Shown here in pieces: positions 6,972-59,880 of a stretch of 64,000 nucleotides of DNA. A program made the translations under genes and the position numbers. This stretch comes from Desulfogranum japonicum DSM 18378 (GTDB taxonomy: Bacteria; Desulfobacterota; Desulfobulbia; Desulfobulbales; Desulfobulbaceae), in assembly GCF_000429945.1 (NCBI RefSeq), contig NZ_AUCV01000004.1, positions 124,001 through 188,000 of the forward strand, given 5' to 3'. Under the pieces are notes generated by a model that did no database searches, was not told where the DNA came from, and saw only the letters and a program-made list of their open reading frames with translations. Each line of letters starts with the position of its first letter. Positions within the stretch are counted from its first letter, which is position 1.

Positions 6972-7008
6972 ATATTCCTGATTCTCTGCAAGTTCATTGA
7001 TAGCTGGT

Positions 7009-7089
7009 GTGTGTCCATACATGAGGATTATTGTTCAAGTTTAAGCATAACGCAAAAACTGGGCAAAAAGACTATTGCTGGACAGGCAC
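7009..7089 (+). repeat. MITE-like repeat family B, short copy
   Basis: An 81-bp copy lacks the internal hairpin module. The left end TGTCCATACATGAGGATTAT and the right end ACTATTGCTGGACAGGCAC are imperfect inverted repeats of each other. The body TTCAAGTTTAAGCATAACGC joins the two conserved end blocks seen separated by extra sequence in the copies at 36020 and 47409. It lies just upstream of the hybrid-kinase gene. Confidence 0.65.
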
Positions 7090-35462: not shown

Positions 35463-36020
35463 ATGACCTTCCTGCTACGGATCATGATGGAATTAACAGA
35501 GGCCTTTACCGAAAAAAGAAAAGAGATTCTTTCCCTATGGGTTGAAAGAACTCTCAACAGCTATACTTCTCCCGGTTTTTTCAAAAAAGCCAAAGATCCG
35601 TTTGCCAACCCTGTTGGCGTCAATACCAGTGACGCACTGCATTCCATATACGACTTACTCCTCAGCAATGCTGAACCAGAGGCATACCAAAAGCCTCTGG
35701 ATACGATAGTAAGAATCCGCGCAGTCCAGGAGATTACGCCGAGCCAGGCCGTAGCGCCGCTACTGGAACTGAAATGGGTCGTCAAGCAGGTCTTAAAATC
35801 AGACCGCAAAACATCATCCCTTTTAGCTGACCTAGATAACTTCGACTGCGAAGTAGACCGCATTGCCCTTATTGCATTTGATATTTACACGGCTTGTCGC
35901 GAACAAGTATATCGTGGGCGAATCCGTGAACTGAAAAGCGGCAGTTATCTGCTTACTGATTCAGCCTGTCCTTCTGCATTGCTAAAAGAAGAGCAGAAAT
36001 CACAATCAGAAAGTAACTAG
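35463..36020 (+). CDS. RsbRD-like domain protein upstream of dsrMKJOP
   Basis: This 185-residue protein consists of one all-helical RsbRD-like N-terminal domain (LTEAFTEKRKEILSLWVERT, then FANPVGVNTSDALHSIYDLL) and no STAS or kinase module. The domain is of the RsbR/sensor-histidine-kinase N-terminal type and in sulfate reducers a similar protein often precedes dsrM; I know that as a general pattern. It may bind a signal or redox partner that controls the Dsr complex. The stop codon overlaps a MITE-like repeat that separates it from dsrM. The start is uncertain, since no clear ribosome-binding site is visible. Confidence 0.75.
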   Translation: MTFLLRIMMELTEAFTEKRKEILSLWVERTLNSYTSPGFFKKAKDPFANPVGVNTSDALHSIYDLLLSNAEPEAYQKPLDTIVRIRAVQEITPSQAVAPLLELKWVVKQVLKSDRKTSSLLADLDNFDCEVDRIALIAFDIYTACREQVYRGRIRELKSGSYLLTDSACPSALLKEEQKSQSESN

Positions 36021-36160
36021 TGCCTTTCCATACATGAGGATTTTTGCTCAAGTTTAAAGCATGCGATAAATTTTTCCGCAGACATATAAGTAATATTTCG
36101 AGGATAAAATTTTGAGCATAATGCAAGAATTGAGTAAAAGGACCATTTACGGACAGACAC
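36020..36160 (+). repeat. MITE-like repeat family B in front of dsrM
   Basis: This 141-bp copy runs from GTGCCTTTCCATACATGAGG to CCATTTACGGACAGACAC. The two ends are imperfect inverted repeats of roughly 30 bp. The middle is the hairpin-like GCGATAAATTTTTCCGC. It abuts the stop codon of the RsbRD-like gene and ends 129 bases before dsrM, so it occupies much of the dsr promoter region. Confidence 0.75.
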
Positions 36161-47368: not shown

Positions 47369-47408
47369 ATTGCACGACAATGGTTGCATCCAGATAATAC
47401 CTGTCCGG

Positions 47409-47604
47409 GTCTTCCCATATATACGTTTTTTGCTCAAGTTCAGGTAAGCGAAGACTCTATGCCTGCGATACATTGTATCGCAGGCATAGAGTTGATATCG
47501 GCGTCTTCGCTTACCTTCGAGAATACAATTTTAAGCACAGCGCACAAATTGAAGGACAGGTAAGCAAGGAACGAGACTCTAAAAAGACTATTTATGGACA
47601 GGCT
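47409..47604 (+). repeat. MITE-like repeat family B, long copy with palindrome
   Basis: This copy of about 196 bp starts near TCTTCCCATATATACG and ends near GACTATTTATGGACAGGCT. The conserved left block TTTTTTGCTCAAGTTCAGG and right block match the copies at 7009, 36020 and 49726. Its centre holds a nested palindrome (47443-47515). It lies between aroA and the SAM hydroxide adenosyltransferase gene, which faces it. Confidence 0.75.
47443..47515. repeat. nested palindrome with 39-bp perfect core
   Basis: The outer arms GGTAAGCGAAGAC (47443-47455) and GTCTTCGCTTACC (47503-47515) are exact inverted repeats. Inside, 47454-47492 is a 39-bp perfect odd-centred palindrome whose arms begin ACTCTATGCCTGCGATACA. 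The structure can extrude as a cruciform or fold as a long RNA hairpin. It belongs to the inner module of the family B repeat. Confidence 0.85.
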
Positions 47605-47616
47605 CCTATTGAACGG

Positions 47617-49630: not shown

Positions 49631-49961
49631 GTATCAGAGTCTGAATAAAAAAGGAATCAAAGGCAAGACAGTATCACAGACAATATGACACTGAACAGAA
49701 AAGACAGCATATACCAACTCTAGCGAAGTCTTTCCATACATGAGAATTTTTGCTCAAGTTTAGGTAAGCGTAGACTCCGAGGCATGCGATAAATTTTACC
49801 GCAGACATAGAGTTGATATTGCCAGACAAGCGTGGAGCACAGCATAAGTGGCTACAGTTGCCAGGTTATGCCTGTTGTTTCATGCCCTGGTAAACAAGTC
49901 ACAACATTTTATCGCATACCCCCGTGAACACACGAGCCATTCAGTCTGTGTAGAATATGTG
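49631..49961. other. spacer holding a MITE-like repeat
   Basis: No gene is apparent between mltA and the DHH gene. The family B copy at 49726-49845 fills the middle. Confidence 0.5.
49726..49845 (+). repeat. MITE-like repeat family B, degraded copy
   Basis: The left block TTTCCATACATGAGAATTTT followed by TGCTCAAGTTTAGGTAAGCG matches the other copies closely. The internal GGCATGCGATAAATTTTACC and AGAGTTGATAT module corresponds to the long copy at 47409. The right terminal block is not recognisable. Confidence 0.65.
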
Positions 49962-57032: not shown

Positions 57033-57109
57033 GCGCCAGTAGCTCAGCTGGATAGAGTGCCGGACTACGAATCCGTAGGTCGGGAGTTCGAATCTTCCCT
57101 GGCGCGCCA
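57033..57109 (+). tRNA. tRNA-Arg(ACG)
   Basis: The 77-base cloverleaf is complete by eye: acceptor stem GCGCCAG/CTGGCGC, D arm GCTC/GAGT, anticodon loop CTACGAA with anticodon ACG, T arm CGGGAGTTCGAATCTTCCC, and encoded CCA end at 57107-57109. The ACG anticodon reads CGU/CGC/CGA through inosine. An integrase remnant follows, as is common at tRNA genes used as attachment sites. Confidence 0.95.
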
Positions 57110-57117
57110 GTAATCCC

Positions 57118-57153
57118 AAGGGGTTAAGTCATTTTGGCTTAACCCCTTGTTTA
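57118..57153 (+). terminator. terminator of tRNA-Arg
   Basis: AAGGGGTTAAG (57118-57128) and CTTAACCCCTT (57138-57148) form an 11-bp perfect stem, then TGTTTATTT. A second, near-identical hairpin occurs at 59840-59880. Confidence 0.85.
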
Positions 57154-57402
57154 TTTGGTGTGAGAAAAAGTGTGAGACTTTTGTCTCGCAGCCTCATAAT
57201 CGCGCACCGCCTGTTTCTCCAGTTCTGAAAAACTGTGCAGATATATTTCCGTCGTCCTTCTGTTTTCGTGGCCTAAAATCTTTTGTATCGCTCCGATAGG
57301 CACATTCACACTGTCCATCAGCGACGCCCCTGCATGTCGAAGGGCGTGATATCTGAAGTAAGGCACCCCTGCCCTTTCGCAAAGATTCCGCATTAGATAC
57401 TT
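57151..57402 (-). pseudogene. tyrosine recombinase/integrase C-terminal remnant
   Basis: The minus-strand frame encodes the end of a phage-type integrase. It reads KYLMRNLCERAG followed by YFRYHALRHAGASLMD (catalytic His-x-x-Arg) and a final GHENRRTTEIYLHSF (His and Tyr). An in-frame stop directly upstream cuts off the rest, and no N-terminal domain is found, so it is not functional. It lies beside tRNA-Arg, so the element probably used that tRNA as an attachment site. Confidence 0.85.
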
Positions 57403-57897: not shown

Positions 57898-57956
57898 CCA
57901 TACAAAAAGGTGCCTACTTTCTTTTTCTACTATATGCGTGTAATAGATTCAACAAG

Positions 57957-58068
57957 GTAACTGCTCACAGTGCACCTGACCTTTCCGCGTTCAGCCAGGC
58001 TTACGTATGATCCGTACACTGCGCCAGCCTGATTGCGAAACTCTCAGGTACCATGTAACCAGTTACAA
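57957..58068 (-). repeat. dispersed repeat family A, full-length copy
   Basis: Read on the minus strand this goes from GTAACTGGTTAC to CTGTGAGCAGT and matches 1845-1955 over nearly its whole length, including TTTCGCAATCAG and GATCATACGTAAGCC. It lies between the HxlR-family gene and the flavin reductase gene. No gene occupies the rest of 57859-58304. Confidence 0.75.
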
Positions 58069-58304
58069 ATACGAGGGAGTTTTACATTTATCCATTTCCC
58101 TTATGAGGAGTTACTCAACACGTTGATCATGCCTGAAAAAAAATTCATGCCAGGCTGAGCAAAGGTGCTCGGCCCTCAAACAAGGCATTGAACTTACGGC
58201 TACAAGTGGCAGGACACCAAACAACCAAAGAAGTCAAACTTCTCAAGTATCATGTTGTAGTGTGGCCAAACTTACTATTATCTCAATTGAAATAGGAATA
58301 ACGA

Positions 58305-59839: not shown

Positions 59840-59880
59840 TGGGGTTAATTCATCTTGACTTAACCCCTTGTTTTTTTTGT
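59840..59880 (+). terminator. second copy of the tRNA-Arg terminator hairpin
   Basis: GGGGTTAA/TTAACCCC repeats the tRNA-Arg terminator hairpin (57118-57153) with three changes in the paired region, followed by TTGTTTTTTTTG. It lies 158 bases after the nitroreductase gene, and could serve as its terminator or mark the far end of the integrated element. Confidence 0.6.

Follow-up and report, generated by a model that had tools for sequence, protein, structure and literature searches.

The described systems that come closest to the repeats analyzed here are MITEs and REP/REPIN repeats. MITEs such as Correia/NEMIS and ERIC are short, dispersed and non-coding, with terminal inverted repeats and a target duplication; a MITE of Porphyromonas, BrickBuilt, carries an internal 23-nt short repeat unit, according to the accessible part of PMC4596501. 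REP/REPIN repeats, together with TnpA-REP (RAYT), are small stem-loop-like units with a variable upper stem or loop, high copy number and a mostly intergenic location. In the accessible portions of the respective papers, a TnpA-REP from Marinomonas has CT and CA as its cutting sites (PMC8266576), the octamer GGTAAGCG occurs in REPs listed for Citrobacter koseri and Enterobacter sakazakii (PMC2817692), and some GTAG- or CGTC-tagged repeat families are reported to be inserted within palindromes (PMC3733652). The locus described here shares features with both kinds of systems, and its analysis separates two things that were once seen as one, namely a simple MITE and a much shorter unit, termed cassette, which appears to have landed in many MITEs.

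We analyzed a window of 64,000 nucleotides (positions 124001-188000 of contig C4 in the 5.8-Mb genome G000); coordinates below are window positions unless a contig is named. All four copies of the MITE-like repeat family B that an earlier note had placed in this window are present, with slightly corrected limits for copies 1, 3 and 4. The copies and their cassettes are located as follows:

7007-7089, plus strand: family B copy 1, 83 bp, both ends, without cassette, short form; flanks TAGCTG and TAGCCC (4/6 bases identical)
36020-36160, plus strand: family B copy 2, 141 bp, both ends, cassette sites I-III all empty; flanks TAACTA and GAACTC (4/6 bases identical)
about 47407-47605, plus strand: family B copy 3, about 199 bp, left end decayed, right end recognisable, sites I-III all filled
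47443-47459, plus strand: cassette in site I of copy 3, 17 bp, final two bases altered, GGTAAGCGAAGACTCTA
47454-47492, no strand: perfect palindrome of two 19-bp arms separated by 1 nt, centre of copy 3
47499-47515, minus strand: cassette in site II of copy 3, 17 bp, opposite orientation, GGTAAGCGAAGACGCCG
47559-47581, plus strand: cassette in site III of copy 3, 23-bp form GGTAAGCAAGGAACGAGACTCTA, CA directly before
49726-49819, plus strand: family B copy 4, left half only, start near 49726, similarity stops near 49819, remainder lost
49763-49779, plus strand: cassette in site I of copy 4, exact 17-bp GGTAAGCGTAGACTCCG

The left block, which the earlier note had ascribed to all four copies, was recovered with up to three mismatches in copies 1, 2 and 4, the only matches in the window (0 in each of 100 shuffles), while no intact TCCATACATGAG remains in copy 3; the placement of the right block in copies 1, 2 and 3 was confirmed. 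The "long palindrome" reported for copy 3 combines the inverted cassettes at 47443-47459 and 47499-47515 with the perfect palindrome of 19-bp arms that lies between them. A search of the whole window against Rfam at the gathering threshold returned nothing beyond a tRNA (57033-57106). Two terminator-like hairpins (57120-57159, directly after this tRNA, and 59841-59880) are 88% alike over 40 nt. The window also holds an inverted repeat pair at 1818-1960 and 57951-58096 (60 nt at 82% and 41 nt at 73%), words of which recur in two cassette-bearing contexts (L168, L198); this pair probably represents a further MITE family, whose ends resemble GTAACTGG.

On the genome scale, the consensus end GTGYCTGTCCATAAATG gave 189 matches at up to two mismatches (91 + 98 on the two strands), compared to 2 (0 + 2) for the reversed pattern. 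Copy 2 used as a query yielded 48 alignments at E ≤ 10 and 39 at E ≤ 1e-6, counts that refer to 40 scored candidates of 118 from a first look and include one place listed on both strands. Within the first 308 kb of sequence put together from the fetched places, 51 inverted end pairs were found within 320 bp (each end with up to four mismatches), spanning 75-269 bp and mostly less than 200 bp, next to 49 end matches that remained unpaired. Across the 51 pairs, flank identity over 6 bp was 0.585 compared to 0.397 in 1000 shuffles (z 7.6); the agreement peaks at a length of 6 and a shift of 0, with z of 2.8 or less at other lengths (2.8 at a length of 2) and no peak at another offset, and the duplicated target has the consensus TARYTA. 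Family B is a dispersed MITE whose copies typically measure 75-200 bp; it has imperfect terminal inverted repeats and was inserted with a 6-bp duplication at TARYTA. The proposal of a non-autonomous mobile element is thereby borne out by its terminal inverted repeats, dispersed copies and target duplication. Neither the lack of further copies nor the loss of end similarity on alignment, both named beforehand as outcomes against this reading, was observed. Relatives of family B occur elsewhere in the order (Desulfobulbus rhabdoformis L188, E 1e-33; L203, E 2e-32).

The transposase with matching ends that had been anticipated was not recognised at the places examined, where ORFs near the ends were judged mostly by eye, and the 88 ends with 0-1 mismatch among those listed of the 189 matches gave long end pairs without matching flanks. 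The family B transposase is thus absent or unrecognised at these places. An ORF adjoining a family B end (L318, IS4-like by eye) was set aside as a candidate autonomous element; it apparently has inverted repeats of its own, and a 150-aa stretch of this ORF matched no family in Pfam.

The cassette has the form GGTAAGCG-core-AGACTCCG, with lengths of 17, 18, 23-25 and 27 bp and rarely about 33 bp. In 59 family B copies (those of 76 extended matches with at least 60 aligned bases), the centre contains three sites at which a block is present or absent, exact to the base. Site I reads AGTTTA^AGGCAT with or without GGTAAGCGTAGACTCCG (25 copies filled, 12 empty, 22 unreadable). Site II, flanked by AA and ATATC, takes the same 17-mer in reverse orientation (33 filled, 13 empty, 13 unreadable), and site III reads GGCA^AAAAG with or without the 23-bp form GGTAAGCGAGGAACGAGACTCCG (14 filled, 28 empty, 17 unreadable). 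The 27 copies readable at all sites comprise 8 with I and II, 7 with all, 6 with none, 3 with II only, 2 with I only and 1 with II and III filled, that is 6/8 possible combinations. As these alignments show, the variable centre of family B is made by the presence or absence of a discrete cassette that also sits in many other repeats. The "modular centre" of the earlier note holds insofar as the centre varies, but this variation is mostly the gain or loss of a second element and not internal to the MITE. Two 84-bp derivatives of family B (L083 on contig C1 and L085 on contig C17 of G000) consist of two ends with one 23-bp cassette between, and look like products of recombination between site I and site III cassettes.

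Outside family B, the cassette is frequent. The 17-mer gave 80 + 81 matches in G000 at up to two mismatches (reversed control: 0 + 0); many lie in another MITE-like family, GTAACTGGTCACAGG..., and some are tandem 17-bp copies, as also seen in other fetched sequence. In G000, TGAGTC often stands in front of a second MITE-like family (GTAACTGGTCACAGGTGC...; L064-L080 and further loci), suggesting a fixed left-side target. Altogether, 443 cassettes were counted in the 1.63 Mb fetched (public contigs as well as G000 and relatives); they fall into 262 flank-context clusters, a number that may overstate independent events, since some clusters are possibly related MITE families; 53 of the clusters have an exactly empty counterpart. 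Among 758 junctions with both 45-bp flanks matched and duplicate contexts removed, the distance between the flanks was 0 in 196, 17 in 347, 18 in 35, 23 in 38, 24 in 19 and 25 in 45 cases. When the positions were moved by 40 bp within these elements as a control, a distance of 0 occurred in 2/1335 cases. An earlier run of the junction test on less data and its two repeats on more data, this one included, all agree.

The junctions are exact to the base and lack a target duplication. The cassette is preceded by A in 399/442 cases, with CA (238) as the commonest dinucleotide and GA in 90, and the target over 146 context representatives reads C(66%) A(89%) ^ A(66%). Cassettes nested at CA within another cassette also occur (G008:C170, L167). 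Only 34 of 234 cassettes tested lie wholly within ORFs of at least 110 aa, though such ORFs make up 79% of the sequence. A preference for hairpin loops (42/146 sites versus 19% of other positions) was too weak to claim. Genome G008 harbors a near-perfect hairpin repeat, TGGTTCCCAAGCTCCAGCTTGGGAAC, with 85 matches at up to two mismatches (22 exact) and 76 distinct uninterrupted places, whereas G000, G010, G018 and G020 have no match. At 7 fetched places in G008 a cassette splits this hairpin after CCCA, and 3 of these hairpins are otherwise exact. Since the hairpin is uninterrupted at 76 places and split at 7, the filled state looks derived and the empty form ancestral. Several of these hairpins are arranged as inverted pairs 85 bp apart (e.g. 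C9:5123-5233, C112:193-303). In the sample fetched with the 17-mer, 48 left arms have no right arm within 400 bp; none of them showed a longer, gene-carrying cassette, and at least 30 are decayed cassettes or chance matches.

The distribution of the cassette is centered on one order. Arms with a core of 1-20 nt occur in 122/193 sampled Desulfobulbales genomes and 51/62 genera, with up to 301 copies of the arm pattern per genome and few or none in many genomes; the reversed arm pattern gave a total of 6 matches. In a phylum sample, the exact 17-mer was present in 4/297 genomes, all 4 among the 12 members of the order (0/285 others). Public contigs contain at least 80 loci of the 17-mer; among the matches listed, 78/80 are titled Desulfo-, Deltaproteobacteria or Proteobacteria, and the two exceptions, a Nitrospirae MAG and a Phycisphaerae MAG, have it inside ORFs. 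Viral contigs yielded 17 and 6 stretches, and the flanks were examined for the 17. In a context recurring across several viral contigs (L280-L296), the 17-mer follows CGA in runs of AATCGAATAACGAAC-type words. No published mention of the exact 17-mer strings or of such repeats in this order was found in open-access PMC.

The core lengths are quantised, and the cores resemble A-stem-loop-stem'-G, for example CC GAA GG, AC GAA GT, CT GCA AG, AT GAA AT and GC AAA GC; longer stems have three (GGT GAA ACC) or five pairs (GCCAT GTA ATGGC). In 44 cores of the 25-bp form, taken from the matches listed and not a random sample, 33 stems are fully paired compared to 12.4 in 20,000 shuffles, which leave relatedness in and of which none was as high. 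Four slid controls stayed close to chance, one of them being mildly raised (16 full stems versus 11.6, 80/3000). The covariation sets comprise 24- and 25-mers and include a few cores with an arm mismatch. For 41 distinct 25-mers of these 44 cores, 91.5% of the cells for the two inner pairs are paired versus 61.7% in shuffled sets, 20 versus 5.8 cells are changed on both sides, and the covariation score is 0.733 versus 0.225 (slid versions up to 0.142), while 2/5 measures did not exceed the shuffles (double-change pairs, 2 versus 1.8; further pair types, 5 versus 5.0). For 23 distinct 24-mers, 38/46 pairs form compared to 28.4 expected (2/20,000 shuffles as high).

The loops are GNA in 19/44 cores, and DNA mini-hairpins of the GNA-triloop kind are very stable; the free ninth base of the 17-mer would be the N of such a triloop closed by C7-G11. 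Nearest-neighbour energies were unremarkable for the majority of forms: predicted as DNA, both 17-mers have no stable fold (0 kcal/mol), and among eight folded forms only the 27- and 33-mers recovered the expected stem, none beyond z -1.6. A test of the lower stem with relaxed arms supported only positions 2 and 15 (13 joint changes versus 1.5 expected), a signal that may reflect one subfamily; the other searches fixed exact arms by construction, so lower-stem pairing there is uninformative. Overall, the cassette would fold, when single-stranded, into an imperfect stem-loop, with covariation supporting the upper stem of the longer forms only.

As a joint explanation, we favor a family B MITE together with a cassette that spreads independently as a single-strand micro-element moved in trans, and consider this reading reasonably probable. 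The cassette would fold as a single-strand imperfect stem-loop, and a putative trans-acting enzyme would cut and join it beside CA, more rarely GA, leaving no target duplication, in the manner of REP/IS200-type single-strand transposition. Cassette loss and the 84-bp derivatives would arise by recombination between cassettes within one copy. Mobility is suggested by the filled and empty sites, and insertion appears preferable to repeated loss because identical inserts lie in non-homologous flanks and interrupt hairpins. The single-strand intermediate is likewise deduced from sequence, because the core is paired and a double-strand circle of 17 bp is physically unlikely. Three other origins of this pattern have to be weighed. 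If the cassette could not move by itself and were an ancient component of related MITEs that recombination between copies removes and restores, the MITE-like nature of the contexts examined in G000, the separate variation of sites I-III, which copy exchange would also give, and the resemblance of the 84-bp derivatives to recombination products would all be expected. We regard this as unlikely: exchange requires common flanks, which are absent here, and it has to face the 53 context clusters with exactly empty counterparts, the cassette in the stem of the unrelated G008 hairpin and the cassette nested inside itself. If a reverse transcriptase wrote a small structured RNA into DNA, covariation would be equally expected and insertion could be exact and free of duplication, but 17 nt is, to our knowledge, very short for any known target-primed system, and this origin seems improbable. 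Even less credit goes to a selected protein- or RNA-binding site (e.g. a terminator or processing site) placed by replication slippage; exact arms in 51/62 sampled genera would suit such a site, but slippage does not account for 17-bp inserts that are identical and exact to the base in flanks without homology.

A trans-acting enzyme could also be a known one, making the cassette a true REP family moved by a RAYT of the order, with merely a changed tag. The short hairpin-like form, the high copy number, the location mostly outside genes, the CA-adjacent insertion and the occurrence of GGTAAGCG in the two enterobacterial REP sets (accessible part of PMC2817692) speak for it. Against it, neither a GTAG nor a CGTC head precedes the cassette. 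Moreover, 33 Y1 places (part of the Y1 matches; 96,231 bp) contain 4 cassettes, never more than one per place, and are not flanked by them. The genome richest in cassettes by summed counts among 37 genomes (G020, a 94%-complete draft) has 192 17-mers at up to one mismatch and 84 longer cassettes and no Y1_Tnp match, G012 has 11 Y1_Tnp matches and zero cassettes, and Y1 and cassette numbers across the 37 genomes gave rho 0.28 (p 0.09). Y1/RAYT as the mover was set aside with no clear link across these genomes, and we consider the REP-family explanation doubtful, though with some weight. Somewhat better, yet still tentative, stands the possibility that the cassette represents a new class of mobile DNA, spreading across the order as a stem-loop unit of 17 bp or longer by means of an enzyme unrelated to known REP transposases. 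Such a class would have two fixed 8-bp arms, a core free as long as it is paired, and an insertion after CA that is exact to the base and free of duplication, often into other selfish repeats and into itself.

If the cassette is mobile, it would set a new lower size limit for mobile DNA, and its natural library of tolerated hairpin cores would be a built-in mutational scan of the recognition by its mover. With so many exact filled and empty sites to compare, the way in which REP-like repeats spread would also become open to testing. Should the new-class reading be true, few mobile DNA units described so far would be as small as the cassette.

Compared with known systems, family B adds to a known class, the MITEs. 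It shares terminal inverted repeats, shortness, dispersal, non-coding nature and target duplication with Correia/NEMIS, ERIC and others, but differs in having no recognised parent transposase at the places examined and a centre that holds cassettes common to other repeats. BrickBuilt is likewise a MITE with an internal short repeat unit; as described in the accessible part of PMC4596501, however, this unit is a tandem minisatellite of one MITE, whereas the cassette is common to many different repeats. With IS200/IS605-type insertion, the cassette shares the lack of a target duplication (196 exact empty junctions) and CA/GA fixed on one side. The insertion within palindromes reported for some GTAG/CGTC-tagged repeat families is also seen for the cassette, which lacks the tag; the accessible text of PMC3733652 on these repeats contains no mention of "Desulf". 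REP/TnpA-REP systems appear to be the nearest working model. The cassette resembles them as a small stem-loop-like unit of high copy number with a variable upper stem or loop and a mostly intergenic location, sits beside CA, where cutting is documented for one TnpA-REP (accessible part of PMC8266576), and has GGTAAGCG in common with two enterobacterial REPs (accessible part of PMC2817692). It differs in its length of down to 17 bp and its exact insertion in other repeats and in itself. Thus, the cassette seems to work like a REP but is not filed as one, because it has no GTAG head, does not flank the Y1 genes examined and does not clearly track Y1 numbers; we regard it as REP-like, and see a real possibility that it is something new.
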